This document shows, piece after piece, positions 32,565 to 64,000 of a stretch of DNA of 64,000 bases. A program made the position numbers and the translations under genes. The notes below the pieces were generated by a model. The model had not been told where the DNA came from, ran no database searches, and worked only from the letters and a program-made list of their open reading frames with translations. Position 1 is the first letter of the stretch. The number at the start of each line of letters is the position of its first letter. Origin of the DNA: Allodiplogaster sudhausi. Its lineage: Eukaryota > Nematoda > Chromadorea > Rhabditida > Diplogasteridae. The stretch is taken from assembly GCA_945643635.1 (NCBI GenBank), contig CALZFC010000271.1, positions 379,501 through 443,500 on the forward strand, in the 5' to 3' direction.

Positions 32565-32867
32565 ACGTACATGCGAACGGTACATTCACTAACCGCTTAG
32601 GTCAATCGGATATCATTTAATCTGCGCATCAGAGCGTACTGCAGAAGATTTACTCCTTTTCTTGCGCTGAAACTGTTTCGTATGGACCGCAAGGCAATTC
32701 CAAGGACAGTTGATGTTACTATGAAGGAAATCGAATTGCAGCTGAAGGTTCAGTGCTGTCTTTCATTAGCTCACCTTCCATTGCCTTTGTAACAGCAATT
32801 AGACTAGTTAACTAAGTTACGCTATTTCCGGGAGTACCGCTATTTTAGGGAGCTAAAGAACAAAAAA

Positions 32868-33943: not shown

Positions 33944-33951
33944 TATATAAA
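33944..33951 (+). promoter_or_regulatory. TATA-like element of A-type monomers
   Basis: TATATAAA in a conserved context (GAGTTGGATATATAAAATG). The same element is at 42388, 46208, 51706 and 56198. Whether it drives transcription is unknown. Confidence 0.3.
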
Positions 33952-34499
33952 ATGTGCAGACTGAGTGCTCTGTAATAAGCTACTTTACATCAAAGGAGAG
34001 CCATATTAAAGCGTAGAATATACAAAAAGAAAGTACAAACCGAGTACATATGGCTGCATGTTTTGATTCGTTTGGCAGATTGCCAAGTGGCGAGAGAGAC
34101 ACTTTAACGTTGTACTTTCACGACGTTAGATACATGAGAAGAACCGCCTTTTTCTGCTGCATCCGACACCGTAGAGAGAGGGGGCTCTTTATGGCTCTCT
34201 CAATTTTTAGTTCTATTTTAAAGAGATTTTGTGCACAAATAGCTGGTCGAGACAGCACGAATTGGCAAAGTGCCAAAATAATGAGGTGCAAGGAGGTGCG
34301 AAGAGATGAGCGAAATGAGGTGCAATGTGTGTTTTTTCTGGTTGCGCAGATTTTTTACGATTTATTATGAATGTTTACGTCAAGTTTTGAATACTTACAG
34401 AGTTGTAAGCAGCATAAATGAGGCATTTAAGTTTAAAGAGCCAAAGGTCCTCGCACGAATTTGATCATACAGTAGACGGCAAGAGTTTTACTGAGAGCT

Positions 34500-34535
34500 T
34501 ATTGGTCGGCTGAGGGGAGGAGCTTATATCTCGTT
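34500..34535 (+). promoter_or_regulatory. CCAAT-type and GC-rich motif in monomer tails
   Basis: Text of the form CTTATTGG(T/C)(T/C)GGCTGAGG followed by GGAGGAGCTTATGTCTC, about 160 bp before each monomer boundary. ATTGG (reverse CCAAT) is at about 34501, 35992, 37731, 41086, 42946, 44906, 46766, 48726, 50404 and 52264. It resembles a proximal promoter placed upstream of the next monomer. Confidence 0.3.
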
Positions 34536-35087
34536 TTCTTAATTCTCTCTTTCTCGGTGTGCTCTCGCTTTTTTCTGCCTCTCACGCAAACCACGCCTCC
34601 CTCTCGCACACGCTAAAAAGATCGCAGATCCTCAAGTACTTATTAGGAGTACAGGGAACTAGTTAACTAAGTTAAGCTACTTTCTGGAGTACTACTACTT
34701 TAGGGAGCTAAACAACTTTAAAGAGCTAAGAAAAGTTTAGGAGTTTTTAGAGTTCAGGGGCTCACTTAAGCTTAGTGAGTTAAAGAAGAGTTAAGAAGTT
34801 TTTAGAGTTTCGGGACTTAGCTAAGCTAAGGAAAGAATAATTAAGGAGTTTTAGAGTTCAGGGTCTCAGCTAAGCTTAGGGAGCTAAAGAAGAGTTAAGG
34901 AGTTTTTAAAGTTTCGGGTCTCAGCAAAGCTTACGGAGTAAGAAGAGAGAGAGAGAGAGTAAGAAGAGAAAAGAAGACATCAAAGGCTTTAAGAAGAGTT
35001 CAGAGCACGATAATACACAAAACATCAATTGGCATAATTTTATTATGTACTATTTATTTCAGATGACTCTAAGTGAACCTGGCCGCA

Positions 35088-35235
35088 AAAACTGCGGTTC
35101 CAAGCGTTCGAAAGGAACCGCAAAAACTGCAGTTCCATGCGATCGCAATAAACCGCAAAATTCGCAGTTCCATGCGATCGGAAGAAACCGCAAAATTCGC
35201 AGGTTCAAGCGTTCGCAAGGAACTACAAAAAATGA
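35088..35235. repeat. 35-bp tandem array, AACCGCAAAA type
   Basis: Four units of a 35-bp repeat with core GGAACCGCAAAAACTGCAGT and TTCCAAGCGTTCGCAA. Other arrays are at 49432-49610 (five units), 56440-56560 and 60808-60895. Because 35 is not a multiple of 3, an open frame cycles through all three frames of the unit. Confidence 0.85.
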
Positions 35236-37003
35236 GCGGCCACGCTCACAGGCGAGCCAAACGTGAGACTGCGCCTCGAAGTTGCAGATTGAACCGAGTT
35301 CTGGAATGCCAGTAAACCAGTGCAACCTATACTTTACGGGTTTTCGACCAAAATTTTTTTCTCTATTTCGCTGTAACAGGCAATTTCAGGACTTGGACTT
35401 ATACTTGTAAGTGTATGTCAAAATGCTTAACGTGAATTATACACAGCTCTCTGTAGCTCATTACAAAGCTCTTACTTTGTAGATTTCACTGGTATAGAGA
35501 GAGAATCAACTTTTGGTCTCTTTGTATGTGTTTTAATCGGAAAAAACGCATAAACGCACATATGTTGGCATCGTGCCAAAAACTTTAAATGACTTGTGAA
35601 TGCGTTCAATGGACACGAGAAAAATGCAAATTTTTGCAGATAGGCAGAGGAATGCAAGAGGAAGAGAGATAAATAGAGAGAGAGTGGAAAAGTAAGTTGT
35701 AAGTGTATATATTTAATGTTTTTCATGTGTTTGGCTGCATGTGTGGTTGAGACAGCGCGAATTGGCAAAGTGCCAATAATTATGAGGTGCGAAGAAATGA
35801 GCGAAATGAGGTGCAATGTGTGTTTTTTCTGCTTGCGCAGATTTTTTGTGATTTATTATGAATATTAACGTTAAGTATTGTGTACTTACAGAGTTGTAAG
35901 CAGCATAATTGAGACTTTTGAGTTTAAAAAGCCTAAGGTCCTCGCACGAATTTGATCGTACTGTAGACGGCAAGAGTTTTACTGAGAGCTTATTGGTCGG
36001 CTGAGGGGAGGAGCTTATGTCTTGTTTTCTTAATTCTCTCGATGGTGGTGCGTTCTCGCTTGTTCTCTGCCTCTCTCGCAAACCACGCCTCCCTCTCGCA
36101 CACGCTAAAATGTTCGCAGACACGTAAGGGCTTATGAGAAGTACAGGGAACTAGGTAACTAAGTTACGCTATTTCCGGGACTACCGCTATTTTAGGGAGC
36201 TTAAGAGCTTAAAAGAGCTAAGAAGAGTTTAGGAGTTTTTAGAGTTTTGGGGCTCAGTTAAGCTTTAGGAATTTTTAGAGTTTTGGGGCTCAGTTAAGCT
36301 TAGGGAGTAAAAGAAGAGTTAAGGAGTTTTTAGAGTTCAGGGTCTCAGCTAAGCTTAGGGAGTTAAAGAAGAGTTAAGGATTTTTTTTAAAGTTTCGGGA
36401 CTCAGCTAAGCTTAGGGAGTAAAAAGCTAATGAGCTTTTAGCTGGAGTGCAAGAACAGAAAGAAAGACATCAAAGGTTTGAAGAAGAGTTCAGAGCACGC
36501 CAAAGAGCTTACGAATACAGCACATCAGAAAGCATGCGAAGTTTAAGAGTTTAAGTAAATCTATGCACTAATAAAGACTCCTAATTTTTCAGGTAATTCT
36601 TAGCTGCACATCGTCATTTTACAATTAATAAAAAAACCATTAAAAAAGGCCTATCCCGGCTCCACTGCACGTAGAGCTAAGAAGGCCATCTCAGCTCGAC
36701 GGCACGCCGAGCCAAGACGGCCAACTCAGCTCAACTTAATGCAGAGCCAGGACGGCGGAGTCAAGTTGAGGAGCAACCTCAAGCTTGGGAAATTAAACCG
36801 AATTTGGACGAAAACGCTGGATGCCTATGAATTTGCGCAACCTACACTTGCCGAGTTTTCAAAGGGAGTTAATGATGCTGGGTATGCGTACTTGGAATGT
36901 TGGCTAAGTGCCAAAAAAATTTTATTTTGAGAGTTTTACTGCTTTAAAGGATACATAAAATTACAAAAAAAATCAGAGAGTAAGAGTAGAGTGGGAGAGA
37001 CAT

Positions 37004-37064
<61 letters not shown>

Positions 37065-38822
37065 AAGTCGTCTCTCTCTCTTTCTTTCAATGTGAACAGG
37101 CTTCTTCAGGACTTGATCGTTTACTTGTAAGTGTCTGTGAGAACGCTCAACGTGAATTATATACATCTCTCTGTAGCTCATTACAAAGCTCTTACTTTGT
37201 AAAAGTCACTGGTATAGAGAGAGAGTCAACTTTCGGTCTCTTTGTAAGTGTTATAATGTGTTTTAATCGAAAAAAATGCGTAAACGCACACATGTTGGCA
37301 TTGTGCCAAAAACTTTAAATGACTTGTGAATGCGTTCAATGGACACGAAAAAATGCATATTTTTGCAGAGAGACAGAGGAATGCGAGAGGAAGACAGAGA
37401 AATAGAGAGAGAGTGGAAAAGTAAGTTGTAAGTGTATATATTTAATGTTTTTCATGTGTTTGGCTGCATGTGTGGTTGAGGCAGCGCGAATTGGCAAAGT
37501 GCCAATAATTATGAGGTGCAAAGAGGTGCGAAGAAATGAGCGAAATGAGGTGCAATGTGTGTTTTTTCTGCTTGCGCAGATTTTTTGCAATTTATTATGA
37601 ATATTAACGTTAAGTATTGTGTACTTACAGAGTTGTAAACAGCATAATTGAGACTTTTGAGTTTAAAGAGCCAAAGGTCCTCGCACGAATTTGATCATAC
37701 TGTAGACGGCAAGAGTTTTACTGAGAGCTTATTGGTTGGCTGAGGGGAGGAGCGTATGTCTCTTTTTCTTAATTCTCTTTTTCTCGCCGTGCTCTCGCTT
37801 TTTTCTGCCTCTCACGCAAACCACGCCTCCCTCTCGCACACGCTAAAAAGATCGCAGACACGTAAGGGCTTATGAGGAGTACAGGGAACTAGTTAACTAA
37901 GTTAAGCTACTTTCTGGAGTACTACTACTTTAGAGAGCTAAAGAACTTAAAAGAGCTAAGAAGAGTTTAGGAGTTTTTAGAGTTCAGGGTCTCAGTTAAG
38001 CTTAGGGAGTTAAAGAAGAATTTAGGAGTTTTTAGAGTTAAGGGGCTCAGTATAGCTTAGGGAGTTAAAGAAGAGTTAAGAAGTTTTTATAGTTTCGGGA
38101 CAGGGAAGAATAATCAAGGAGTTTTTAGAGTTCAGGGTCTCAGCTAAGCTTAGGGAGTTAAAAAAGAGCTAATGAGTTTATAACATCGAAGGTTTTACGA
38201 AGAGTTCAGAGCACGACAAAGAGCTTACGAATATAGAACTTCAGAAAGCATTATAAGCATCAAAGGTTATAAGAAAAGTTCAAAGCACGATAAAGAGGAT
38301 ACGAATACAGCACATCAGAAAGCATGCTAAAATATGGTCTCCTAATTTTTCAGGTAATTCTAAGCTGTACATCATCTTTCTACAATGAAAAGAGAACTAT
38401 TAAAAAGGCTCTTCCCGGCTCCACTGCACGTCGAGCTAAGAAGGCCATCTCAGCTCGACATAACGCCGACCCAAGACGTCCAACTCAGCTCCACTGAACG
38501 CAGAGCCAAGAATGCCAAGTTGAGGAGCAACCTCAAGCTTGGGAAATTAAACCGGCATTGGACAGAAAGAGCTGGATGCCTATTTGCGCAACCTACACTT
38601 GCTGAGTTTTCAAATGGAGTTAATGATGCTGGGTATGCGTAATTGGAATGTTGGCAAAGTGCCAAAAAAATTTTATTTTGAGAGTTTTACTGCTTTACAG
38701 GATACATAAAATTACAAAATATTTGAGAGTAAGAGTAGAGTGGGAGAGACATGATAGAACTGTCTCTCTCTCTTTCTCCCTCTCTATGTCGTCTCTCTCT
38801 CTCTTTCTTTCAATGTGATCAG

Positions 38823-38849
38823 GCTTCTTCAGGACTTGATCGTTTACTT
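38823..38849 (+). other. 27-nt exon-like block with splice signals (example copy)
   Basis: A CT-rich tract and CAATGTGATCAG precede GCTTCTTCAGGACTTGATCG plus seven more bases, followed by GTAAGTGT. Copies of the same block lie near 37101, 40455, 44272, 48092, 54054 and 63705, and diverged ones near 35378, 49783 and 56897. Acceptor and donor both stay good in most copies. Confidence 0.4.
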
Positions 38850-41247
38850 GTAAGTGTATGTGAGAACGCTCAACGTGAATTATATACATCTCTCTGTAGC
38901 TCATTGCAAAGCTCTTACTGTGTACAATTCACTGGTATAAAGAGAGAGTAAACTTTCGGTCTCTTTGTATGTGTTTTAATGTGTTTTAATCAAACGCGTA
39001 AACGCTCATATGTTGGCATCGTGCCAAAAACTTTAAATGACTCGTGAATGCGTTTAATGGATACGAAAAAATGCAAATTTTTGCACAGAGCCAGAGAAAT
39101 GCGAGAGGAAGAGGGAAAAATAGAGAGAGAGAGGAAAAGAGTGTTGTAAGTGTATATATTTAATGTTCTTTCATGTGTTTGGCTGCATGTATGGTCGAGA
39201 CTGCACGAATTGGCAAAGTGCCAAAAATAATGAGGTGCAAAGAGGTGCGAAGAAATGGGCGAGATGAGGTTCAATGTGTGATTTTCTGCTTGTTTAGATT
39301 TTTTAGCGATTTATTATGAATATTAACGTTAAGTATTGTGTACTTACAGAGTTGTAAACAGCATAATTGAGACTTTTGAGTTTAAAGAGCCAAAGGGCTT
39401 AGTGAGTTAAATAAGAGTTTAGGAGTTTTTAGAGTTCAGGGTCTCAGTTAAGCTTAGGGAGCTAAAGAAGAATTTAGGAGTTTTTAGAGTTAAGGGGCTC
39501 AGTTTAGCTTAGGGAGTTAAAGAAGAGTTAAGAAATTTTTATAGTTTCGGGACAGGGAAGAATAATCAAGGAGTTTTTAGAGTTCAGGGTCTCAGCTAAG
39601 CTTAGGGAGTTAAAGAAAAGTTAAGGAGGTTTTAAAGTTTCGGGTCTCAGCTAAGCATAGGGAGTTGAAGAAGAGTTAAGTTTTTAGAGTTCAGGGTCTC
39701 AGCTAAGCTTAGGGAGTTAAAGAAGAGCTAATGAGTTTATAGCTGGAGCGTAAGAAGAGAAAAGAAGACATCGAAGGTTTTACGAAGAGTTCAGAGCACG
39801 ACAAAGAGCTTACGAATATAGAACATCAGAAAGCATGATAAGCATCAAAGGTTATAAGAAAAGTTCAAAGCACGACAAAGAGGATACGAATACAGCACAT
39901 CAGAAAGCATGCTAAAATATGGTCTCCTAATTTTACAGGTAATTCTAAGCTGTACATCATCTTTCTACAATGAAAAGAGAACTATTAAAAAGGCTCTTCC
40001 CGGCTCCACTGCACGTCGAGCTAAGAAGGCCATCTCAGCTCGACGTAACGCCGACCCAAGACGTCCAACTCAGCTCCACTGAACGCAGAGCCAAGAATGC
40101 CATCTCAGCTCAGCGTAATGCAGAGCCAGGACGGCAGAGTCAAGTTGAGGAGCAACCTCAAGCTTGGGAAATTAAACCGGCATTGGACAGAAAGCGCTGG
40201 ATGCCTATGAATTTGCGCAACCTACACTTGCTGAGTTTTCAAAGGGAGTTAATGATGCTGGGTATGCGTAATTGGAATGTTGGCAAAGTGCCAAAAAAAA
40301 TTTATTTTGAGAGTTTTACTGCTTTAAAGGATACATAAAATTACAAAAAAAAATTTGAGAGTAAGAGTAGAGTGGGAGAGACATGATAGAACTGTCTCTC
40401 TCTCTTTCTCTCTCTCTATGTCGTCTCTCTCTCTCTTTCTTTCAATGTGATCAGGCTTCTTCAGGACTTGATCGTTTACTTGTAAGTGTATGTGAGAACG
40501 CTGAACGTGAATTATATACATCTCTCTGTAGCTCATTGCAAAGCTCTTACTGTGTACAATTCACTGGTATAGAGAGAGAGTCAACTTTCGGTCTCTTTGT
40601 ATGTGTTTTAATGTGTTTTAATCGAAAAGAAACGCGTAAACGCTCATATGTTGGCATCGTGCCAAAAACTTTAAATGACTCGTGAATGCGTTTAATGGAC
40701 ACGAAAAAAATGCAAATTTTTGCACAGAGCCAGAGAAATGCGAGAGGAAGAGGGAAACATAGAGAGAGAGGAAAAGAGTGTTGTAAGTGTATATATTTAA
40801 TGTCCTTTCATGTGTTTGGCTGCATGTATATTCGAGACTGAACGAATTGGCAAAGTGCCAAAATAATGAGGTGCAAAGAGGTGCGAAGAACTAAGCGATA
40901 TGAGGTGCAATGTGTGTTTTTCTGCTTGAACAATTTTTTTAGCGATTTATTATGCATATTAACGTTAAGTTTTGTGTACTTACAGAGTTGTAAACAGCAT
41001 AATTGAGACTTTTGAGTTTAAAGGGCCAAAGGTCCTCGCACGAATTTGATCATACTGTAGACCGCAAGAGTTTTACTGAGAGCTTATTGGCTGGCTGAGG
41101 GGAGGAGCTTATGTCTCGTTTTCTTCACTCTCTCCTCTGCACACAATTCCTCGCTTTTTTCTGGCTCTCTCGCTTGCTCCGCCTCCTTCTCACACACGCT
41201 AAAAAGATCGCAGATCCTCAAGAGCTTATTTGGAGTACAGGGAATAG

Positions 41248-44200
41248 TTAACTAAGTTACGCTATTTCCGGGAGTACCGCTATTTTAGGGAGCTAAAGAA
41301 CAAAAAAAAGTTTTAGAGTTCAGGGTCTCAGCTAAGCTTAGGGAGTTAAAGAAGAGTTAAGGAGTTTTTAGAGTTCAGGGTCTCAGCTAAGCTTAGGGAG
41401 TTAAAGAAGAGTTAAGGAGTTTTTAGAGTTCAGGGTATCAGCTAAGCTTAGGGAGTGAAAGAAGAGTTAAGGAGTTTTTAGAGTTTAGGGTCTCAGCTAA
41501 GCTTAGGGAATGAAAGAAGAGTTAAGGAGTTTTTAGAGTTCAGGGTCTCAGCTAAGCTTAGGGAGTTAAAAAAGATCTAATGAGTTTTAGTTGGAGTGCA
41601 AGAAGAGAAAGAAAGACATCAAAGGTTTGAAGAAGAGTTCAGAGCACGCTAAAGAGCTTACGAATACAGCATATCATAAAGCATGAGAGTTTAAGTAAGA
41701 AGAGTTAAGGAGTTTTTAGAGTTAAGGGTCTCAGCTAAGCTTAGGGAGTAAAAGAAGATCTAATGAGTTTTTAGCTGGAGTGCAAGAAGAGAAAGGAAAA
41801 CATCAAAGGTTTGAAGAAGAGTTCAGAGCACGCCAAAGAGCTTACGAATACAGCACATCAGAAAGCATGCTAAGTATGAGAGTTTAAGTAATTCTATGCA
41901 CTAATAAAGACTCCTAATTTTTTCAGGTAATTCTAAGCTTCACATTGTCATTTTACGATTAATAAAAAAACTATTTAAAAATGAATATCCCGGCTCCACT
42001 GCACGTAGAGCTTAGAAGGCCACCTCAGCTCGACGTAACGCCGAGCCAAGAAGACTCTCTCAGCTCCACGGCACTTCAAGCCGAGACGGCCAACTCAGTT
42101 CTCAGTTCCACTGAATGCAGAACCAAGAAGGCCATTCCGGCTCAACGAAATGCGGAGCCAGGAACAAACATGAGGCTGCGCCTCGAAGTTGCCGATTAAA
42201 CCGAGTTCTGGGATGCCCGTAAACCAGCGCAACCTATACTTGACGGCTTTTCGACCAAAATTATTTTCTCTGCGCAACGCTATTTCGCTGAGTATGCCAA
42301 AGACATGAGGGAAAGATGTATGCGGGATAAATGTGTTTAACTTGAGAGAGAGACAGTGATTGCGAGAGATACAGAGAAAGAGTTGGATATATAAAATGTG
42401 CAGACTGAGAGCTCTGTAATAAGCTACTTTACATCAAAGGAGAGCCATATTAAAGCGTAGAAAATACAAAAAGAAAGTACAAACCGAGTACATATGGCTG
42501 CATGTTTTGATTCGTTTGGCAGATTGCCAAGTGGCGAGAGAGACACTTTAACGTTGTACTTTCACGACGTTAGATACATGAGAAGAACCGCCTTTTTCTG
42601 CTGCATCCGACACCGTAGAGAGAGGGGGCTCTTTATGGCTCTCTCAATTTTTAATTATATTTTAAAGAGATTTTGTGCACAAATAGCTGGTCGAGACAGC
42701 ACGAATTGGCAAAGTGCCAATAATTATGAGGTGCAAAGAGGTGCGAAGAAATGAGCGAAATGAGGTGCAATGTGTGTTTTTTCTGCTTGCGCAGATTTTT
42801 TGCAATTTATTATGAATATTAACGTTAAGTATTGTGTACTTACAGAGTTGTAAACAGCATAATTGAGACTTTTGAGTTTAAAGAGCCAAAGGTCCTCGCA
42901 CGAATTTGATCATACTGTAGACGGCAAGAGTTTTACTGAGAGCTTATTGGTTGGCTGAGGGGAGGAGCTTATGTCTCTTTTTCTTAATTCTCTTTTTCTC
43001 GCCGTGCTCTCGCTTTTTTCTGCCTCTCACGCAAACCACGCCTCCCTCTCGCACACGCTAAAATGATCGCAGACACGTAAGAGCTTATGAGGAGTACAGG
43101 GAACTAGTTAACTAAGTTAAGCTACTTTCTGGAGTACTACTACTTTAGGGAGCTAAAGAACTTAAAAGAGCAAAGAAGAGTTTAGGAGGTTTTTGAGGTC
43201 AAGGGCTCAGTTAAGCTTAGTGAGTTAAATAAGAGTTTAGGAGTTTTTAGAGTTCAGGGTCTCAGTTAAGCTTAGGGAGCTAAAGAAGAATTTAGGAGTT
43301 TTTAGAGTTAAGGGGCTCAGTTTAGCTTAGGGAGTTAAAGAAGAGTTAAGAAGTTTTTATAGTTTCGGGACAGGGAAGAATAATCAAGGAGTTTTTAGAG
43401 TTCAGGGTCTCAGCTAAGCTTAGGGAGTTAAAGAAAAGTTAAGGAGGTTTTAAAGTTTCGGGTCTCAGCTAAGCATAGGGAGTTGAAGAAGAGTTAAGTT
43501 TTTAGAGTTCAGGGTCTCAGCTAAGCTTAGGGAGTTAAAGAAGAGCTAATGAGTTTATAGCTGGAGCGTAAGAAGAGAAAAGAAGACATCGAAGGTTTTA
43601 CGAAGAGTTCAGAGCACGACAAAGAGCTTACGAATATAGAACATCAGAAAGCATGATAAGCATCAAAGGTTATAAGAAAAGTTCAAAGCACGACAAAGAG
43701 GATACGAATACAGCACATCAGAAAGCATGCTAAAATATGGTCTCCTAATTTTACAGGTAATTCTAAGCTGTACATCATCTTTCTACAATGAAAAGAGAAC
43801 TATTAAAAAGGCTCTTCCCGGCTCCACTGCACGTCGAGCTAAGAAGGCCATCTCAGCTCGACGTAACGCCGACCCAAGACGTCCAACTCAGCTCCACTGA
43901 ACGCAGAGCCAAGAATGCCATCTCAGCTCAGCGTAATGCAGAGCCAGGACGGCAGAGTCAAGTTGAGGAGCAACCTCAAGCTTGGGAAATTAAACCGGCA
44001 TTGGACAGAAAGCGCTGGATGCCTATGAATTTGCGCAACCTACACTTGCTGAGTTTTCAAAGGGAGTTAATGATGCTGGGTATGCGTAATTGGAATGTTG
44101 GCAAAGTGCCAAAAAAAATTTATTTTGAGAGTTTTACTGCTTTAAAGGATACATAAAATTACAAAAAAAAATTTGAGAGTAAGAGTAGAGTGGGAGAGAC

Positions 44201-51800: not shown

Positions 51801-52539
51801 ACCGAGTACATATGGCTGCATGTTTTGATTCGTTTGGCAGATTGCCAAGTGGCGAGAGAGACACTTTAACGTTGTACTTTCACGACGTTAGATACATGAG
51901 AAGAACCGCCTTTTTCTGCTGCATCCGACACCGTAGAGAGAGGGGGCTCTTTATGGCTCTCTCAATTTTTAATTATATTTTAAAGAGATTTTGTGCACAA
52001 ATAGCTGGTCGAGACAGCACGAATTGGCAAAGTGCCAATAATTATGAGGTGCAAAGAGGTGCGAAGAAATGAGCGAAATGAGGTGCAATGTGTGTTTTTT
52101 CTGCTTGCGCAGATTTTTTGCAATTTATTATGAATATTAACGTTAAGTATTGTGTACTTACAGAGTTGTAAACAGCATAATTGAGACTTTTGAGTTTAAA
52201 GAGCCAAAGGTCCTCGCACGAATTTGATCATACTGTAGACGGCAAGAGTTTTACAGAGAGCTTATTGGTTGGCTGAGGGGAGGAGCTTATGTCTCTTTTT
52301 CTTAATTCTCTTTTTCTCGCCGTGCTCTCGCTTTTTTCTGCCTCTCACGCAAACCACGCCTCCCTCTCGCACACGCTAAAATGATCGCAGACACGTAAGA
52401 GCTTATGAGGAGTACAGGGAACTAGGTAACTAAGTTGATTGTTTAGCTAAGTTAAACTATGAGCTAAGTTAAGCTTGGAACTAAGTTAGAAAGGAAATTT
52501 TTGTTGCTATTTTTACTAATTTTCTAAGGTATTTTGGCT

Positions 52540-52930
52540 TTATACGCTCCTTTAAGGCTCTGTTACTGTAGCTATTATGAAAATGTACATTAAAAGAAAC
52601 ATGCTGGCCAAGTTTGGCGGCTTTTGGAGCAAGTTGACCAAACGGACCAAAGTTGACCCTTTTGAACGGGTTACTGTAGCTAATATGTAAAATAACAAAA
52701 AAAAGAAACATGTTGGCCAAGTTTGGCGATATTCGAAAAAAAAATTGAATTTGAACTATGTTTTCTCCCGTCGCGAAATTGTTCGTACTGTAGCTTGGCA
52801 AGCAGCCAAGTTGGAAATGCTTGGCAAGTAGCCAAGTTGAAAAATTGAATTTGAACTATGTTTGCTCCCGTCGCGAATTTCTTCGTACTGAAGCTTGGCA
52901 AGTAGCCAAGTAGTTTTTTCTCTGCCAACA
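52540..52930. repeat. 108-bp unit and TTGGC palindrome block, copy 1
   Basis: Contains about two units of the 108-bp repeat (core AAACATGCTGGCCAAGTTTG, GACCAAACGGACC, GAACGGGTTACTGTAGC) followed by three NFI-like palindromes in a context TCTCCCGTCGCGAA...CGTACTGTAGC. Confidence 0.85.
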
Positions 52931-53064
52931 CTATTTCGCTTCCGTTCTATGTCTGCTCTCATCGTTCCTGCGCTATTTTCGCTGTCTTCGAGGACGCTCT
53001 TCGCTTTGTGCGCTATCTCGCTGGGACATTGTCGTTAGCTATGTTGCTCTGAACAGGGGACTAG

Positions 53065-54400
53065 TTAACTAAGTTACGCTATTTCCGGGAGTACCGCTAT
53101 TTTTAGGGAGCTAAAGAACAAAAAAAAGTTTTAGAGTTCTGGGACTCAGCTAAGCTTAGGGAGTTAAAGAAGAGTTAAGGAGTTTTTAGAGTTCAGGGTC
53201 TCAGCTAAGCTTAGGGAGTTAAAGAAGAGTTGAGTTTTTTGAGTTCAGGGTCTCAGCTAAGCTTAGAGAGTTAAAGAAGAGTTGAGGAGTTTTTAGAGTT
53301 CAGGGTCTCAGCTAAGCTTAGGGAGTGAAGAGCTAATGAGTTTTTAGCTGAAGTGCAAGAAGAGAAAGAAAAACATCAAAGGTTATATGAAAAGTTCAAA
53401 GCACGACAAAGAGGATACGAAAACAGCACATCAGAAAGCATGCTAAAATATGGTCTGAACATCAGAAAGCATGATAAGCATCAAAGGTTATAAGAAAAGT
53501 TCAAAGCACGACAAAGAGGATACGAATACAGCACATCAGAAAGCATGCTAAAATATGGTCTCCTAATTTTTCAGTTATTTCTAAGCTGTACATCACCTTT
53601 CTACAATAAAAAGAGAACTATTAAAAAAGGCTCTTCCCGGCTCCACTGCACGTCGAGCTAAGAAGGTCATCTCAGCTCCACTGAACGCAGAGCCAAGAAG
53701 GCCATCTCAGCTCAGCGTAATGCAGAGCCAGGACGGCAGAATCAAGTTGAGAAGCAACCCCAAGCTTGGGAAATTAAACCGACTTTGGACAGAAAGCGCT
53801 GGATGGCTATTTCGCGCAACCTACACTGGCCGAGTTTTCAAAGGGAGTTAATGATGCTGGGTATGCGTACTTGGAATGCTGGCAAAGTGCCAAAAAATTA
53901 TTATTTTAAGAGTTTTACTGCTTTAAACGTTACATAAAATTACAAACAAAAATCAGAGAGTAAGAGTAGAGTGGGAGAGACATGATAGAACTCTCTCTCT
54001 CTCTCTTTCTCTCTCTAAGTCGTCTCTCTCTCTCTTTCTTTCAATGTGAACAGGCTTCTTCAGGACTTGATCGTTTACTTGTAAGTGTCTGGGAGAACGC
54101 TCAACGTGAATTATATACATCTCTCTGTAGCTCATTACAAAGCTCTTTCTTTGTAAAATTCACTGGTATAGAGAGAGAGTCAACTTTCGGTCTCTTTGTA
54201 AGTGCTTTAATGTGTTTTAATCGGAAAAAAATGCGTAAACGCACACATGTTGGCATTGTGCCAAAAACTTTAAATGACTTGTGAATGCGTTAAATGGACA
54301 CGAAAAAATTCAGATTTTTGCAGAGAGACAGAGGAATGGGAGAAGAAGACAGAGAAATAGAGAGAGAGAGTGGAAAAGTAAGTTGTAAGTGTATATATTT
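53065..54400. repeat. Further monomer, B/D-like
   Basis: Starts with the boundary text, has the 55-bp array, a duplicated CATCAGAAAGCATG segment (53405-53560), the 35-bp-type GC-rich region near 53630, the CT tract and the exon-like block, and ends where the macro-domain gene region begins. Confidence 0.8.
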
Positions 54401-54598
54401 AATGTTTTTCATGTGTTTGGCTGTATGTTTGCAAGAGGTGCGAAGTGGTCGTCGGAGGTGCGAAGTGAGAGTCGACGTCTGTTTTTCTCTGCCAACGCTA
54501 TCTCGCCTTTTCGCGCCTGTGACTTTTTTTCTCTGCCAAGTTTGGCGGCTTTTGGAGCAAGTTGACTAAACGCACCTAAGTTGACCATTTTGAACGGG

Positions 54599-55285
54599 TT
54601 ACTGTAGCAACCATCCATGAATGCGAGCCTTGCGCAGACAGTTGTAGTAAGCAGCCCAGAGACGATGATGCTGGTGACCAGTCAGCTTCGTCTTGTCAGC
54701 GTTGCCGCTGCAGATGGGCGCAACGGCGTGAATGATTCCTAAAAGCAAAGTGCATTACGAAATGTCCACATAAATGAATAAAGAGGAATATCATAAAAAT
54801 ATTAATAATTGTTATTGAATCAATTTTGCTAACCATTGCAGGAAAGGCCGTAAGCCGCAGTGCGAACGACGTCGCCTGCCTTGAGCTCGAGCTTGTCGTA
54901 ACCAAGCTTTCTGCAATGCTTCGCCTTCCTCATTCCCAACTCAGCATCCAGAGCCTTGAGGTTGTCAGCGCCACCGACATCGAGAATGCGGTTGCGGATG
55001 GCACCGTTAACTCCGGAGCCTGATGAATAGGCGTATAATGTAAATGTAAATAAGTAAAATAAAGTGAGTAATAATTTTAAAAAAAATTATAAAATACGTG
55101 AAATTAATTGGATTTTTGTTATGGAAAAATGAAAATAAATGAAGTTGTCTTACGAGAGGTATATAAAAGAAGGAGAACATACCGATGCCAAGCTGAGCAT
55201 TGGCCGCGTTGACGATGGCATCGTGGCCAGTGACGAATTCGATCTTGCCCTCGTTAACCTTGATGGTCAGGTTGCGAAGCGGCAT
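54599..55285 (-). CDS. Macro-domain (ADP-ribose binding) protein, truncated 3' end
   Basis: Three exons with canonical, in-phase junctions: 55183-55285, 54834-55019 and 54599-54738. The start reads MPLRNLTIKVNEGKIEFVTG and then HDAIVNAANAQLGIG-SGVNGAIR, which carries the macro-domain signature: the DAIVNAAN motif that recognises ADP-ribose and the glycine-rich substrate loop. YGLSCNGIIHAVAPICSG is the later core strand-loop. Such proteins bind or remove mono-ADP-ribose from proteins or hydrolyse related metabolites. The usual last third of the domain (the second phosphate loop and final helix) is absent: after HGWLLQ the frame reaches TAA inside GAACGGGTTACTGTAGC, which is the 108-bp satellite. 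The gene is therefore probably broken by repeat expansion, unless a further exon is spliced in from beyond the repeat. Confidence 0.8.
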
Positions 55286-55289
55286 CGTT

Positions 55290-56110
55290 GAAAGAAGAGA
55301 AAGAGTTAAAGATGAGATATCTGTAAAAGAAGAGGAAGGAAGTCATTGAAAAAATTGAATGATACAGACATATGTATGTAATTAAGGTAAAAGGGGAAAA
55401 AACGGAATAGCAGAAACATAGTATGATCGGGAGCTAATAATGCAAGCACAATGAAGGAGTAATCTATGATGATGAAGCTGGCGAAATTAGCACCTATAGA
55501 AATGTGAATGCAGTTGAAGTGTTCACACCAATTAGAAGAGGGGATGCATAAAATTGACTCGTAAGTAGTGGTCACGCCTGTTTATTAATCCGCATGACTG
55601 AATCTCCGTATTCGCAGTAAATTATTAAAGAAGAGGCATCATGAGAGTGGGAGAGAGAAAGAGAAAGAGAGAGGTCGCAGCAAATTATTAAAGAAGAGAC
55701 AGCAGCAGAGAGGGAGAGAAAAAGAGAAAGAAAAAGAAAGAAAGAAAGAGAAAGAGCTGAAGTGACCTTTATGTAGAATATGTATATGTTAATTCCTTTA
55801 TTTCTCAATGAATGTAATAAGGCTTGCTCCAAATACGTGTGCATATTCAATGTATGTAGATAAGTGTAGCGAATAAATTTATTCCAAAAACTGCAAAAGT
55901 GTGCACATGCGAAGAAATATAATATTCTAAGAACAGTAATAAAATGAAATCAATAAGAAATGGAGTAAATGAATAAGCAATGAATGTGTTAAATCCTTTG
56001 TTTCTCCTTTATTTCTCAATGACTGTAATGCTAAGTACTCACAATAATTTATTTTCTATGTCTAATATTTTGCTAAGTACTCAAAATTATTTATTTTAGA
56101 TGAATGAGAC
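55290..56110. other. A+T-rich spacer with short duplications
   Basis: No gene seen. The text CGCAGTAAATTATTAAAGAAGAG at about 55614 is repeated with changes near 55675 (truncated here to key text: AAATTATTAAAGAAGAG), each followed by a GA tract. TTTATTTCTCAATGA and GCTAAGTACTCA also occur twice, at 55798/56008 and 56031/56072. Confidence 0.6.
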
Positions 56111-57480
56111 ATGAGCGACAGATGTATGCGGGATAGATGTGTTTAACTTGAAAGAGAGAGAGAGAGAGATTGCGAGAGATACAGAGAATGAGTTAGATAT
56201 ATAAAATGTGCAGACTGAGAGCTTTGTAATAAGCTCATTCCCATCATATCCACATTAAAGCATCAAAAATACAAAAAGAAAGTACAAACCGAGTACATAT
56301 GGCTGCATGTTTTGATTATCTAAGTCTGTTATTTGGCAAAGTTCTCTCTATTAGTTATTTTCTAAGTCTGCTATTTTGTAATGTGCTCTCAAATATTTAT
56401 ATTCCACGTATGCGATGTTGATATCTCAAAAAAGAACTGCAGTTCCAAGCATCCACAAGGAACCGCAAAAACTGCAGTTCCAAGCGTTCGCAAGGAACCG
56501 CAGTACCCAGCTCTCGCAAGGTACCGCAAAAGCTGCGGCTCCAAGCGTTCGCAAGGGAACAGCAAAAAATGAGCGGCCAGGCTGACAGGCGAATCAACCG
56601 TGAGGCTGTGCCTGGAATTCGCCGATTAAACCGAGTTCTGGGATGCCCATGAACCAGCGCACACTATACTTGACGGCTTTTCGACCAAAATGTTTATCTC
56701 TGGGTATGCCTTCTTGGAATGTTGGCTAAGTGCCAAAAAGAGACTATTTTGAGAATATTACTCCTTTAAAGGATACATAAAATTCCAAAAAAATCGGAGA
56801 GTATAAGGAGAGCGTGAGAGACATGATAGAACTCTCTCTCTCTCTCGTTCTCTCTCTTTATGTCGTCTCTCTCGCTCTTTCTTTCTATGTGAACAGGCTA
56901 TTTATGACTTGGCCGTGTACTTGTTAGTGTATGTTCAAACGCTCAACGTGAATTATATACATCTCTCTGTAGCTCATTGTAAAGCTCTTGCTGTGTACAA
57001 TTCACTGGTATAGAGAGAGAATCAACTTTCGGTCTCTTTGTATGTGTTTTAATGTGTTTTAATGGAAAGATGCATGTATGTTGGCATTGTGCCAAAAACT
57101 TTGAATGAGTTGTACATCTGTTCAATGGACACGAAAAAATACAGATTTTTGCAGAGAGACAGAGGAATGCGAGAGGAAGAAGGAGAAATAGAGAGAGAGT
57201 GGAAAAGTAAGTTGTAAATGTATATATTTAATGTTAGCAGAAGGTGCAAAGTGGTCAGCGGAGGTGCGAAGTGAGAGTCGACTAAGTGGCTCGGTCGCTA
57301 TTGGTCGAAATCGGGAATGGGCCAATGAGCGAGGGGGGCGGAGTTTCTTTCTATGTCTGCTCTCCTCGAGCATAGCGCTATTTCGCTATTTTCGCACTTC
57401 TTCGAGGACGCTCATCGCTTTGTGTGCTATCTCGCTGTTCCAGACACGTTAGCTCTTTTGCTCTGAACAGGGGACTAGGT
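56110..57480. repeat. Diverged monomer fragments
   Basis: Holds the TATA-like element (56198), a 35-bp AACCGC array (56440-56560), a diverged exon-like block (56897) and two NFI-like palindromes, in the same order as in the main array but with more differences, so it is an older or rearranged copy. Confidence 0.75.
57297..57345 (+). promoter_or_regulatory. Divergent CCAAT pair with GC box
   Basis: ATTGG at 57300 and CCAAT at 57322 are followed by GAGCGAGGGGGGCGGAG. The same layout is at 62033-62075, there 17 bp after a perfect TTGGC(N5)GCCAA site. CCAAT plus GC box is a classic eukaryotic promoter layout; no gene is seen downstream. Confidence 0.35.
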
Positions 57481-57559
57481 AACTAAGTTATTTGTTTTGC
57501 TAAGTTAAGCTGTGAGCTAAGTTAAACTGTGTTGCTAAGTTGAACTATGAGCTAAGTTA

Positions 57560-59970
57560 AGCGTGGGGCTAAGTTTGGCGGCTTTTGGAGCAATTTGACC
57601 AAACGGACCTAAGTTGACCCTTTTGAACGGGTTACTGTAGCTATTATGAAAATGTACACTAAAAGAAACGTGCTGGCCAAGTTTGGCGCCTTTTTTAGCA
57701 CTTTGACCAAACGAACCTAAGTTGACCCTTTTGAACGGGTTACAATAGCTATTATGAAAATGTACACTAAAAGAAACATGCTGAAAAAGTTTGGCGATAT
57801 TTGGAGCAAGTTGACCAAACGGACCAAAGTTGACCCTTTTGAACGGGTTACTGTAGCTAATATGTAAAATAACAAAAAAAGAAACATGTTGGCCAAGTTT
57901 GGCGATATTCGAAAAAAAAATTGAATTTGAACTATGTTTTCTCCCGTCGCGAATTTGTTCGTACTGCAGCTTGGCAAGTAGCCAAGTTGGAAATGCTTGG
58001 CAAGTAGCCAAGTTGAAAAATTGAATTTGAACTATGTTTGCTCCCGTCGCGAATTTGTTCGTACTGTAGCTTGGCAAGTAGCCAAGTTGAAGCTTGGCAA
58101 GTAGCCAAGTCGTGGGCTCGGTGATGTGTCTACGTTCTCGCTAATCGCAGGCTCGGCGAAAAGATTTTTTTTTCTCTGCCAACACTATTTCGCTTCCGTA
58201 CTATGTCTGCTCTCCTCGAGCATAGCGCTATTTCGCTATTTTCGCACTTCTTCGAGGACGCTCATCGTTTTGTGCGCTATCTCGCGGCGTCGATTACGTT
58301 AGCTCTTTTGCTCTGAACAGGGGACTAGGTAACTAAGTTAATTGTTTTGCTAAGTAAAGCTATGAGCTAAGTTAAACTGTGTTGCTAAGTTGAACTATGA
58401 GCTAAGTTAAGCGTGGGGCTAAGTTTGACCGGGTTACTGTAGGTATTATGAAAATGTACACTAAAGGAACATGCTATCCAAGTTTGGAGGCTTTTGGAGC
58501 AGGTTAACCAAACGGACCTAAGTTGACCCTTTTGAACGGGTTACTGTAGCTATTATGAAAATGTACACTAAGGGAAACATGCTGGCCAAGTTTGGCGGCT
58601 TTTGGAGCAAGTTGACCAACCGGACCTAAGTTGACCCTTTTGAACGGGTTACTGTAGCTATTATGAAAATGTTCACTAAAAGAAACGTGCTGGCCAAGTT
58701 TAGCGGCTTTTGGAGCACTTTGACCAAACGGACCTAAGTTGACCCTTTTGAACGGGTTACTGTAGCTATTATGAAAATGTACACTAAAAGAAACATGCTG
58801 GCCAAGTTTGGCGGCTTTTGGAGCAAGTTGACCAAACGGACCAAAGTTGACCCTTTTGAACGGGTTACTGTAGCTAATATGTAAAATAACAAAAAAAGAA
58901 ACATGTTGGCCAAATTTGGCGATATTCGAAAAAAAAATTGAATTTGAACTATGTTTTCTCCCGTCGCGAAATTGTTCGTACTGTAGCTTGGCAAGTAGCC
59001 AAGTTGGAAATGCTTGGCAAGTAGCCAAGTTGAAAAATTGAATTTGAACTATGTTTGCTCCCGTTGCGAATTTGTTCGTACTGTAGCTCGGCAAGTAGCC
59101 AAGTTGAAAATGCTTGGCAAGTAGCCAAGTCGTGGGCTCGGTGACTGTTTACGTTCTCGCTAATCGCAGGCTCCGCGAAAATTTTTTTTTCTCTGCCAAC
59201 ACTATTTCGCTTCCGTACTATGTCTGCTCTCCTCGAGCATAGCGCTATTTCGCTATTTTCGCACTTCTTCGAGGACGCTCATCGTTTTGTGCGCTATCTC
59301 GCGGCGTCGATTTCGTTAGCTCTTTTGCTCTGAACAGGGGACTAGGTAACTAAGTTATATGTTTTGCTAAGTTATAAATAAACTATGAGCGAAGTAAGCT
59401 CTAGGCTAAGTTAGAAAGGGAATTTTTGTTTGCTATTTTTACTAATTTTCTAAGGTACTTTGGCTTTATACGCTCCTTTAAGGCTCTGTTACTGTAGCTA
59501 TTATGAAAATCTACATTAAAAGAAACATGCTGACCAAGTTTGGCGGCTTTTGGAGCACTTTGACCAAACGAACCTAAGTTGACCCTTTTAAACGGGTTAC
59601 TGTAGCTATAATGAAAATGTACACTAAAAGAAACATGCTGGCCAAGTTTTGCGGCTTATGGAGCACTTTGACCAAACGGACCTAAGTTGACCCTTTTGAA
59701 CGGGTTACTGTAGCTATTATGTAAAATAACATTAAAAGAAACATGTTGGCCAAGTTTGGCGATATTCGAAAAAAAATCGAATTTGAACTATGTTTTCTCC
59801 CGTCGCGAATTTGTTCGTACTGTAGCTTGGCAAGTAGCCAAGTTGGAAATGCTTGGCAAGTAGCCAAGTTGAAAAATTGAATTTGAACTATGTTTTCTCC
59901 CGTCGCGAATTTGTTCGTACTGTAGCTTGGCACGTAGCCAAGTTGAAAATGCTTGGCAAGTAGCCAAGTC
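57560..59970. repeat. 108-bp tandem arrays and palindrome blocks, copies 2-4
   Basis: 108-bp units: about three at 57565-57870, four to five at 58430-58880 and two to three at 59480-59720. Each array is followed by the same block with TCTCCCGTCGCGAA and four NFI-like palindromes, then by TCTGCCAACACTATTTCGC text and a boundary-like ACTAGGTAACTAAGTTA (57475, 58325, 59341). The whole cassette is about 850-1015 bp and is itself repeated. The unit length is 36 codons, so long open frames result on both strands. Confidence 0.85.
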
Positions 59971-60177
59971 GTGGGCTCGGTGACTGTTTACGTCTCGCTA
60001 ATCGCAGGCTCGGCGAAAATTTTTTTTCTCTGCCAACACTATTTCGCTTCCGTTCTATGTCTGCTCTCATCGTTCCTGCGCTATTTTCGCTATTTTCGCT
60101 GTCTTCGAGGACGCTCATCGTTTTGTGCGCTATCTCGCGGCGTCGATTACGTTAGCTCTTTTGCTCTAAGGAGGGGA

Positions 60178-60740
60178 CTAGTTAACTAAGTTACGCTATT
60201 TCTGGGACTACCGCTATTTTAGGGAGCTTAAGAGCTTAAAAGAGCTAAGAAGAGTTTAGGAGTTTTTAGAGTTTTGGGGCTCAGTTAAGCTTTAGGAATT
60301 TTTAGAGTTTTGGGGCTCAGTTAAGCTTAGGGAGTTAAAGAAGAGTTAAGGAGTTTTTTAAAGTTTCGGGACTCAGCTAAGCTTAGGGAGTAAAAAGCTA
60401 ATGGGCTTTTAGCTGGAGTGCAAGAACAGAAAGAAAGACATCAAAGGTTTGAAGAAGAGTTCAGAGCAAGCCAAAGAGCTTACGAATACAGCACATCAGA
60501 AAGCATGCGAAGTTTAAGAGTTTAAGTAAATCTATGCACTAATAAAGACTCCTAATTTTTCAGGTAATTCTAAGCTGCACATCGTCATTTTACAATTAAT
60601 AAAAAAAACATTAAAAAAGGCCTATCCCGGCTCCACTGCACGTAGAGCTAAGAAGGCCATCTCAGCTCGACGGCACGCCGAGCCAAGACGGCCAACTCAG
60701 CTCAACTTAATGCAGAGCCAGGACGGCGGAGTCACTTTAA
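60178..60740. repeat. D-type monomer, 5' part
   Basis: Boundary text, 55-bp subrepeats and GC-rich segment very close to the monomer that starts at 36155. It breaks off near 60735 and joins a 35-bp array. Confidence 0.8.
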
Positions 60741-61015
60741 CGTTGTTCTGCAACTACGTTAGATAAGAAGAACTTCTATTTTAAATAGCTTTTGTGCACA
60801 TATGGCCTGGCCGCAAAAACTGCAGTTCCAAACGGTCGCAAGGAACCGCAGAAGCTGCAGTTCCAAGCGTTCGCAAGGAACCGCAAAAGCTGCAGCCGCC
60901 TTTCTCTGCTGCATCCGACACCATAGAGAGAGGCGGCTCTTTTAAGCTCTCTCTATTTTTAATTCTATTTTAAATAGCTTTTGTGCACATAAGGATGCAT
61001 GTCTCGACTCTACTG

Positions 61016-61617
61016 CACGTCAAGCCAAGAAGGCCATCTCAGCTCGACTTGACGTCAAGCCAAGAAGGCCATCTCAGCTCGACTTCGCGTCAAGCCAAGA
61101 AGGCCATCTCAGCTCGACTTCACGTCAAGCCAAGAAGGCCATGTCAGCTCGACGACACGTCAAGCCAAGAAGCCCATCTCAGCTCGACGACACGTCAAGC
61201 CAAGAAGGCCCTCTCAGCTCCACGGCACGCCAATCCAAGAAGGCACTCTCAGCTCCATTGCACGTGGAACCAAAAGGCCCTCTCGGTTCAGCGATGCGCT
61301 GAGCTGGGAAAGCAGTCACGTCAAGCCAAGAAGGCCATCTCAGCTCGACTTGACGTCAAGCCAAGAAGGCCATCTCAGCTCGACTTCGCGTCAAGCCAAG
61401 AAGGCCATCTCAGCTCGACTTCACGTCAAGCCAAGAAGGCCATGTCAGCTCGACGACACTTCAAGCCAAGAAGCCCATCTCAGCTCGACGACACGTCAAG
61501 CCAAGAAGGCCCTCTCAGCTCCACGGCACGCCAATCCAAGAAGGCACTCTCAGCTCCATTGCACGTGGAACCAAAAGGCCCTCTCGGTTCAGCGATGCGC
61601 TGAGCTGGGAAAGCAGT
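61016..61617. repeat. 301-bp direct duplication of 35-bp repeats
   Basis: 61016-61316 and 61317-61617 are near-identical and each consists of about eight 35-bp units (core CGTCAAGCCAAGAAGGCCAT, CTCAGCTCGA). One visible difference is CACGTCAAG versus CACTTCAAG at about 61458. Another array of the same unit is at 62420-62640. An open frame of 206 codons results, with three peptide versions of the unit in rotation. Confidence 0.9.
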
Positions 61618-62764
61618 CAGTTTGAGGACGTACCTCAAACTTGGGTGATTAAACCGACTTTGGCCAGGAAGCACTGGATGCCTATAAGCTGGCGCAACCT
61701 ATGTTAGCCGAGTTTTTCTTAGCATGTGAGGCCAGCGTGTTGGGGGACACTTGGTAACGCGGGGAGCAGGAGCGACCAAAAATTTCATATGGCTGCATGT
61801 CTTTTTGGCGATTGGCAACTTGCCAACCTGTGAGAGAGACACTTTAACGTTCTCCTGCAACTACCTTAGATATGTCAAAATAACCGCCTTTCTCTGATGC
61901 ATCCGACACCATAGAGAGAGGCGGCTCTTTTAAGCTCTCTCTATTTTTAATTTTATTTTAAATAGCTTTTGTGCACATATGGATGCATGTCTGGTTAGCG
62001 GTTGGCAACTTGCCAAGACCTGGCTCGCTCGCTATTGGTCGAATCCTGAAATGGGCCAATGAGCGAGGGGGCGGAGCTCCCGTGGCCTCGGCGATCTCGC
62101 GTGTCGCAGGCTCGGCGAACTTTTCTCTATTGCAAAGTGCTCTTCTTATCATGTGTTCTAAGTGCTACTATAGAAATCTTCAAATTTTTCTGGTCATTTT
62201 GAGCAATCAACTATGTTTCTGCGATAAAAATGATGGATGAGGAAACTTCTTTTAAATGTCTAATCGTTCAGGCTTACTTTTATACAACATTACATAGCTA
62301 AAAAAACCGCCTTTCTCTGTAGAAAAATGTAGGATAGAGAGAGACACAGCTTCCGAGCTCTCTCTAAATGTTTTACGCTAAATTAAAGACTTGTGATTAC
62401 ATATGGCTGGCTCAACTGCGGCCATCTCAGCTCGACGTCACGTCAAGCCAAGAAGGCCATCTCAGCTCAACGTCACGTCAAGCCAAGAAGACCATCTCAG
62501 CTCAACGTAACGTCAAGCCAAGAAGGCCATCTCAGCTCAAGTCAACGTCAAGCAAAGAAGGCCATCTCAGCTCAACCCAACGTCAAGCCAAGAAGGCCAT
62601 CTCAGCTCGACACCACGTCGAGCCAAGAAGGTCAACGGTACAGCCCTGGGCGGAACCAGGCAGGCAGTAAGATTGAGGAAGTACCTCAAACTTAATTAAA
62701 CCGGCTTTGGTCAGGGAGCACTGGATGCCTATGAACTGGCGCAACCTATGTTGGCCGAGTTTTT

Positions 62765-63025
62765 CTCTCAATGATTTATTTTTAATGTCTGCTATATTGC
62801 CATCTGTTCTCAATGAATTATTATCTAAGTCTGCTATTTTGCCAAGTGCTCTTAATGATTTATCATCTAAGTCTGCTATTTTGCCAAGTGCTCTCAATGA
62901 TTCATCATCTAAGTCTGCTATTTTGCCAAGTGCTCTCAATAATTTATTATCTAAGTCTGCTATTTGGCTAAGTTCTCTCTATATTTAAATTCTAAGTCTG
63001 CTATTTTGTAAAGTGCTCTCAAATA
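62765..63025. repeat. 42-bp tandem array
   Basis: Five to six units of 42 bp with core CTAAGTCTGCTATTTTGCCA and AGTGCTCTCAATGA. It translates to 14-residue repeats (KSAILPSALND) but has no other coding sign. The unit holds an NFI half-site (TTTTGCCAAG). Confidence 0.85.
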
Positions 63026-63074
63026 TTTATATTCCATGTATGCGATGCAAGAGCTGCAGTTCCCAGCTCTCGAT

Positions 63075-64000
63075 ATGCTCCGGAGTGCAAGAAGAGAAAG
63101 GAAAACATCAAAGGTTTGAAGAAAGTTCAGAGCACGCCAAAGAGCATACGAATACAGCACATCAAAAAGCATGCTAAGTAAAAGAGTTAAAGTAATCCTA
63201 ATAAAGACTGATAATTTTTCAGGTAATTCTAAGCTGCACATCGTCGTTTTACAATTAATAAAAAAAACATTTAAAAGGCCTATCCCGGCTCCACTGCACG
63301 TAGAGCTAAGAAGGCCACCTCAGCTCGACGTAACGCCGAGCCAAGAAGGCCATCTCAGCTCAGCGTAATGCAGAGCCAGGAAGGCAGAGTCAAGTTGAGG
63401 AGCAACCTCAAGCTTGGGAAATTAAACCGGCTCTGGACAGAAAGCGCTGGATGCCTATGAATTTGCGCAACCTACACTGGCCGAGTTTTCGAAGGGAGTT
63501 CATGATGCTGAGTGTGCGTACTTGGAATGCTGGCAAAGTGCCAAAAAATAATTATTTTAAGAGTTTTACTGCTTTAAACGATACATAAAATTACAAAAAA
63601 AATCAGAGAGTAAGAGTAGAGTGGGAGAGACATGATAGAACACTCTCTCTCTCTCTTTCTCTCTCTAAGTCGTCTCTCTCTCTCTTTCTTTTAATGTGAA
63701 CAGGCTTCTTCAGGACTTGATCGTTTGCTTGTAAGTGTCTGTGAGAACGCTCAACATGAATTATATACATCTCTCTGTAGCTCATTAGAAAGCTCTTACT
63801 TTGTACAATTCACTGGTATAGAGAGAGAGTCAACTTTCGGTCTCTTTGTAAGTGTTTTAATGTGTTTTAATCGGAAAAAAATGCGTAAACGCACACATGT
63901 TGGCATTGTGCCAAAAACTTTAAATGACTTGTGAATGCGTTCAATGGCCACAAAAAAATGCAGATTTTTGCAGAGAGACAGAGGAATACGAGAGGAAGAG
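63075..64000. repeat. Monomer continuing beyond the window
   Basis: From about 63075 the text follows the D/B-type monomers: CATCAAAGGTTTGAAGA, AATAAAGACT, the GC-rich segment, CT tract, exon-like block and a perfect palindrome at 63900. The array therefore runs off the right end of the window. Confidence 0.85.

Follow-up and report, generated by a model that had tools for sequence, protein, structure and literature searches.

A mosaic satellite array of ~31 kb in the genome of the nematode Allodiplogaster sudhausi carries 47 exact copies of the palindrome TTGGC(N5)GCCAA, which has the form of a full binding site for Nuclear Factor I (NFI). The array occupies the right-hand part of the stretch analyzed here (contig CALZFC010000271.1 of assembly GCA_945643635.1, positions 379,501 to 443,500), whose whole length of 64 kb we call the window; tandem repeats and self-BLAST place gene-bearing DNA left of ~32.8 kb and the repeat mosaic in the remainder. 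To judge from the sites and their flanks, binding by an NFI dimer may be what has kept full-consensus sites in the diverged modules of this satellite, a tentative reading whose chances we consider close to even.

The first exact site starts at 34072 and the last ends at 63914, and a pattern count over the whole window finds none before 34072. This agrees with a sequence-only reading of the same DNA, which had reported about 47 exact sites in 30 kb with none in the first 34 kb and had proposed a comparison with shuffled sequence. Made on the window, that comparison sets the 47 sites against a mean of 0.03 and a maximum of 1 in 100 dinucleotide shuffles. If NFI binds them, the 31-kb array would hold about the number of perfect full sites expected by chance in ~100 Mb, a figure derived from the rough 100-shuffle mean.

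Sites, modules and chance expectation

The array is a complex satellite, combining diverged monomers in head-to-tail order with a highly identical multi-monomer period. Its largest self-match, between 39397-45468 and 43215-49357, reaches 98.0% identity over 6144 columns and represents a higher-order repeat of 3.82 kb, each complete period of which holds five NFI-type sites (two complete periods, counted from 39397). Among the matches listed, all array self-matches of at least 350 bp are on the + strand, and those other than the higher-order repeat show ~66-98% identity. Long self-matches are few around 54.6-56.1 kb. Grouping by flanking sequence assigns the sites to five homologous positions in the modules, which we designate A to E, with 5, 12, 10, 8 and 15 members, 50 in total (Table 1). 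The exceptions to an exact match among the 50 are two D copies with CTGGC and an E copy with TCGGC.

The preferred NFI site is reported as TTGGCANNNTGCCAA (PMC3082249), and 31 array sites match it exactly. Of the 50 homologous positions, 48 have A at position 6 of the site and 35 have T at position 10, a regularity that goes beyond the pattern given in the sequence-only reading. The looser NFI consensus YTGGCN5GCCAR accommodates 49 of the 50. With TTGGC arms, dyad symmetry and 5-nt spacing, the array sites thus qualify on sequence as candidate NFI full sites, sharing all three features with the sites of C. elegans NFI-1 and vertebrate NFI/CTF. An RFX X-box was discarded as a candidate, since its half-sites point in the opposite direction. 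That NFI binds such a full site, as the earlier reading had stated, is consistent with the report that C. elegans NFI binds in vitro the site recognized by vertebrate NFIs (PMC1277823). A conserved C. elegans promoter motif is described as similar to a documented NFI-1 site (PMC3337475), and worms without nfi-1 are reported to survive (PMC1277823). In mouse cells, NFI has been tied to promoters (PMC3082249) and NFI sites are reported to be enriched near chromatin boundaries (PMC3610271). Whereas NFI sites in these accounts belong to promoters and other regulatory regions, the candidate sites in the array number dozens within a satellite. Among the titles listed from open-licence papers that join NFI with nematodes, satellites or tandem repeats, none names a satellite of NFI sites; this is weak evidence of absence.

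As a guard against a pattern picked by eye, dyads with every 5-bp arm and gaps of 0-15 were surveyed within 32.8-64 kb. TTGGC with a gap of 5 leads in both copy number (47) and number of distinct flanks (25), and CTAAG with a gap of 0 is the runner-up, with 41 copies in 11 distinct flanks. The spacing is also specific: in TTGGC(Nk)GCCAA with k from 0 to 35, k=5 occurs 47 times, k=31 five times (in tandem E sites), and k=12, 24 and 28 once each. Half-sites in the array exceed first-order expectation (90 against ~30 for TTGGC, 133 against ~27 for GCCAA), an excess due partly to the full sites and to 35-bp tandem repeats.

Shuffling alone takes no account of duplication. Removing all array stretches alignable to an earlier array position leaves 5352 of 31200 bases, and these hold eight exact sites where 1500 shuffles give 0.0067 on average. 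Two of the eight are homologues of position D that escaped the mask and three are tandem E sites; therefore, five contexts are the fair number. The sequence-only reading had held that the sites are not one copied block; the 47 copies include recent duplicates with ~98% identity.

Relatedness of the contexts and variation of the arms

The contexts were compared by anchored alignments of their flanks, the null being 600 draws against random positions in the array. The site at 61812 is linked to family A on both flanks, and the site at 62002 to family B by its upstream flank, whose score of 36 lies above 99% of the null. Families C and D are weakly linked downstream, with scores of 13-17 in the best pairs against a 99% point of 12. 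Cross-links near the 1-5% level, such as B to C or D to 61812, were disregarded given the number of pairs, and family E has no cross-family link below 5% in these alignments. The word GGCTGCATGT, or its variant GGATGCATGT, lies 10-19 nt upstream of all five A sites and of eight of the 12 B sites; the four B sites without it are those that follow an A site. The word also occurs at 56301 and 60993 with no accompanying site. The at least six unrelated contexts of the sequence-only reading are thus an overstatement: the sites occupy five homologous positions in a mosaic satellite, which by their cross-family links and in our judgement probably trace to about three lineages. The bases next to the arms are nevertheless poorly related. 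Between A and B, the adjoining 12 bases match at near random levels (1 of 12 on the upstream side and 2-3 of 12 on the downstream side), whereas the arms agree at 10 of 10. The same holds for most comparisons across contexts; among the exceptions are the related pairs A/61812, 61812/62002 and C/D.

Variation among homologous copies was assessed in six alignments that together hold 49 of the 50 positions (family E split into E1 and E2, the site at 62002 left out), with trees and parsimony changes counted per gap-free column. The arms have 2 changes in 60 columns, the spacers 7 in 30 and the flanks 318 in 1039. Windows drawn at random, one per set, reach two or fewer changes with P=4e-5 over all six sets and with P=3.4e-4 when the sets are limited to A-D; if gaps are included in the count, no draw in 20000 is as low as the arms. 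In aggregate, the arms vary less than the spacer and flanks, which is the outcome (P ~4e-5) that the sequence-only reading had looked for in an alignment of monomers. Its broader argument, that fixed arms and spacing around a changing spacer indicate selection and not copying, is favored in aggregate but is weak in most single families, and other blocks of the module are as invariant as the sites.

Several observations weigh against preservation of the sites by NFI binding. Tested one family at a time, arm conservation is mostly weak: the proportion of windows that equal the arms in conservation is 0.164 for A, 0.041 for B, 0.057 for C, 0.194 for D, 0.683 for E1 and 0.068 for E2. When ten units of the D-C-B module are aligned and windows of 15 columns are taken over whole sites, with their spacers, only B stands out as well conserved (0.055), whereas D (0.402) and C (0.294) are unremarkable. 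Four further stretches of the module show no change over 21-28 columns, so the sites are not its only conserved blocks. The trees are blurred by gene conversion and by recent duplication; the latter, as in the 98% higher-order repeat, explains many of the 47 copies. A focus on the most striking dyad also biases the comparison toward conserved positions. In none of the 14 exact E sites is position 10 a T. Siteless places that match one flank exist for family A (two, at 56321 and 60705), family B (two, at 54448 and 60825), family D (six, all matching the upstream flank of 56722) and family E (many, mostly register shifts within the tandem E repeat); family C has none. The same flank-based search for lost sites found no siteless place matching both flanks of one family. 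At 52921, a one-flank match, the second site of an E pair is absent, and inspection by eye indicates a further B site lost by deletion at 57.2 kb.

Three invariant blocks of 22-28 columns are located just 3' of site B (40866-41022 and homologous stretches) and equal the NFI-type sites in conservation; a second alignment shows them as well. They may be further protein sites.

Explanations for the persistence of the palindrome

Binding by a host NFI dimer, which would itself preserve the arms, would account for the constancy of the arms across contexts and for the match to the published site, and the sequence hints that the array is or was NFI-bound. The distances between sites are relevant to what such binding might do. 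A is separated from B by 190 bp, as is 61812 from 62002; C is separated from B by 196-198 bp, and D from C by 359-395 bp in eight pairs. The DNA of the A-B interval shows no detectable relation to that of the C-B interval (P 0.22). Between 61812 and 62002 the DNA does resemble that of the C-B interval, yet the likeness is lost (P 0.16) when the final 45 nt, where the shared word lies, are taken out. Intervals of 190 and 196-198 bp thus point to similar spacing kept over differing sequence, which, with two independent cases, is suggestive.

Under NFI binding, dimers would sit at these intervals in each module (190-198 bp within pairs, 359-395 bp from D to C), and their occupancy might set the chromatin state or the nucleosome phasing of the array. 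The setting of satellite chromatin by sequence-specific factors has been proposed for mouse pericentromeric heterochromatin (PMC4363358), and the array would share this mode by analogy, although the mouse factors named there are Pax3-9, Gfi1b, Sall1 and BEND3, unlike the NFI proposed here. A sponge effect would be a by-product of occupancy; a cell-wide sponge would require many sites relative to NFI protein. If NFI binds, the array would be a natural case of a satellite that titrates a transcription factor or carries factor-defined chromatin. We think it rather unlikely that the array goes further and constitutes an NFI-dependent chromosomal element, in which selection would keep high-affinity dimers at approximately nucleosomal intervals in modules that turn over, with a role in chromatin setting, as a barrier or in titration. 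In that event, the identity of the satellite would lie in the sites of one transcription factor and not in its sequence.

The strongest competitor to NFI binding is passive inheritance, which we regard as a lesser but substantial possibility. Two or three NFI-like palindromes, inherited or arisen by chance in the founder modules, would have spread by segmental duplication and gene conversion, and their apparent conservation would reflect youth, homogenization and the attention of the observer. The flank relationships among A, B, 61812 and 62002, and more weakly between C and D, fit such a history, as do the 98% higher-order repeat, the equal conservation of other module blocks and the lack of significance in most single-family tests. 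It has greater difficulty with the origin of the sites, since two or three independent founders are unlikely in ~5.4 kb with 0.0067 expected. The aggregate arm conservation (P 4e-5) and the retention of 10 of 10 arm bases across contexts whose adjoining bases mostly match near random also speak against it.

Arm constraint leaves the protein unnamed, and another host dimeric DNA-binding protein with NFI-like specificity might read the sites, for example in meiotic pairing or at the centromere. C. elegans pairing centers provide a precedent, as their enriched 12-base motifs are reported to be read by zinc-finger proteins (PMC9071541). We consider this improbable, because the arms, the 5-nt spacing and the mostly A/T bases at positions 6 and 10 match the published NFI preference. 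ZIM/HIM-8 motifs are enriched near one chromosome end. The array and the pairing centers are alike in the enrichment of a short motif, bound by protein in the latter, over a limited part of a chromosome (PMC9071541).

The palindrome could also persist by seeding rearrangement, the modules being cut and joined at it. In Meloidogyne chitwoodi and M. fallax, satellites are reported to contain a CENP-B-box-like Box 1, exactly at which some monomer transitions occur (PMC3694981). Those satellites resemble the array in that a short motif is conserved across highly diverged monomers of a nematode and in their higher-order arrays; the array is likewise a mosaic, and some of its one-flank matches stop near a site position. 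However, the array motif is NFI-like and is avoided by breakpoints: the fraction of 528 breakpoint clusters within 10 bp of sites is 0.011, against 0.032 for shifted sites, a depletion not to be over-read because BLAST ends tend to extend past conserved words. Breakpoints are therefore fewer near the sites, not more numerous as at a junction motif of the Box 1 type, which favors a protein site over a recombination motif and makes the seeding of rearrangements very improbable. A motif at sites of somatic breakage and telomere addition, the Sequence For Elimination, has been described in programmed DNA elimination (PMC13370393).

Selection for a hairpin or cruciform in the DNA or its transcript, acting on pairing and not on base identity, is hardly credible: short perfect stems are possible (five arm pairs plus up to two inward and one outward), but palindromy goes no further than the arms in 29 of the 50 positions and takes in one more pair in the other 21, a single arm sequence is kept, none of the 50 shows a compensatory double change, each of the three arm-changed positions breaks a pair, and gap-5 dyads with other arm sequences are far rarer. 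The limited palindromy and the lack of compensatory change are better explained by a protein site.

Table 1. Coordinates of the array, its higher-order repeat and the NFI-type sites in the window
Feature	Position	Strand	Basis or detail
Mosaic satellite array	32802..64000	+	self-BLAST, tandem repeats; modules head-to-tail; truncated by the window end
Recent higher-order repeat	39397..49357	+	3.82-kb period, ~98% identity
NFI-type site, family A	34072..34086	.	exact pattern and flanks
NFI-type site, family A	42516..42530	.	exact pattern and flanks
NFI-type site, family A	46336..46350	.	exact pattern and flanks
NFI-type site, family A	51834..51848	.	exact pattern and flanks
NFI-type site, diverged family A	61812..61826	.	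spacer and adjoining bases altered
NFI-type site, family B	34262..34276	.	exact pattern and flanks
NFI-type site, family B	35762..35776	.	exact pattern and flanks
NFI-type site, family B	37491..37505	.	exact pattern and flanks
NFI-type site, family B	39210..39224	.	exact pattern and flanks
NFI-type site, family B	40847..40861	.	exact pattern and flanks
NFI-type site, family B	42706..42720	.	exact pattern and flanks
NFI-type site, family B	44667..44681	.	exact pattern and flanks
NFI-type site, family B	46526..46540	.	exact pattern and flanks
NFI-type site, family B	48487..48501	.	exact pattern and flanks
NFI-type site, family B	50165..50179	.	exact pattern and flanks
NFI-type site, family B	52024..52038	.	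exact pattern and flanks
NFI-type site, diverged family B	62002..62016	.	flank related upstream, unrelated downstream
NFI-type site, family C	35565..35579	.	exact pattern and flanks
NFI-type site, family C	37295..37309	.	exact pattern and flanks
NFI-type site, family C	39013..39027	.	exact pattern and flanks
NFI-type site, family C	40651..40665	.	exact pattern and flanks
NFI-type site, family C	44469..44483	.	exact pattern and flanks
NFI-type site, family C	48289..48303	.	exact pattern and flanks
NFI-type site, family C	49969..49983	.	exact pattern and flanks
NFI-type site, family C	54250..54264	.	exact pattern and flanks
NFI-type site, family C	57081..57095	.	exact pattern and flanks
NFI-type site, family C	63900..63914	.	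exact pattern and flanks
NFI-type site, family D	36900..36914	.	exact pattern and flanks
NFI-type site, family D	38651..38665	.	exact pattern and flanks
NFI-type site, family D	40280..40294	.	exact pattern and flanks
NFI-type site, family D	44098..44112	.	exact pattern and flanks
NFI-type site, family D	47918..47932	.	exact pattern and flanks
Family D position, left arm CTGGC	53879..53893	.	outside the 47
NFI-type site, family D	56722..56736	.	exact pattern and flanks
Family D position, left arm CTGGC	63530..63544	.	outside the 47
Family E cluster	52795..52909	.	site starts 52795, 52821, 52895
Family E cluster	57971..58108	.	site starts 57971, 57997, 58071, 58094
Family E cluster	58988..59128	.	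site starts 58988, 59014, 59114; damaged position 59088 (TCGGC)
Family E cluster	59827..59967	.	site starts 59827, 59853, 59927, 59953
Recurring word GGCTGCATGT	34052..34061	+	one of 13 exact copies; variant GGATGCATGT, 2 copies

Further features of the array and the adjoining genes

GC skew is positive in all 14 two-kb steps of 32001-60000. A positive skew is expected if all modules face one way; alternatively, it could mark one-way transcription. To the eye, 57290-57335 and 62030-62075 resemble promoters, with CCAAT-box-like words on both strands beside a word similar to GGGGCGGAG. Tandem repeats of 35 bp rich in GCCAAG, also read by eye, are found at 61000-61620 and 62430-62640, and open stretches of 117-209 codons occur in all three + frames at 60.9-61.7 kb, probably because the 35-bp unit happens to be stop-free. 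Within the array, a macro-domain gene fragment is present on the - strand at 54600-55300 (Pfam PF01661, E 2.9e-10, exons joined by eye). Its 3' end appears to pass straight into an E-type repeat, and the fragment may represent a gene that was captured or truncated. Searches for a plasmid match to one 1301-base module and for a viral contig with one composite B-site pattern both returned none, which is expected for an animal satellite and says little.

An RNA-gene reading of the array was rejected: the only matches listed by Rfam at gathering thresholds are two to tRNA, each lying outside the array on its left side, and ARAGORN finds one tRNA in the window. A tRNA-Arg (TCG) gene lies on the - strand at 32491-32565, ~240 bp from the left array edge. 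Elsewhere, tRNA genes can serve as chromatin barriers. Pfam matches left of the array include ribosomal protein S3, animal haem peroxidase and the MSP domain, with collagen and an NAD-binding domain below the cut-off. In a comparison with PDB, the S3 protein of the window scores 392 bits with 9bh5, which we take to be the C. elegans ribosome, and 365 bits with the next single-stretch match; a two-stretch match, 9p8h_SD, is higher at 709 bits. CT/GA tracts are abundant throughout the gene-bearing part (1-32800).

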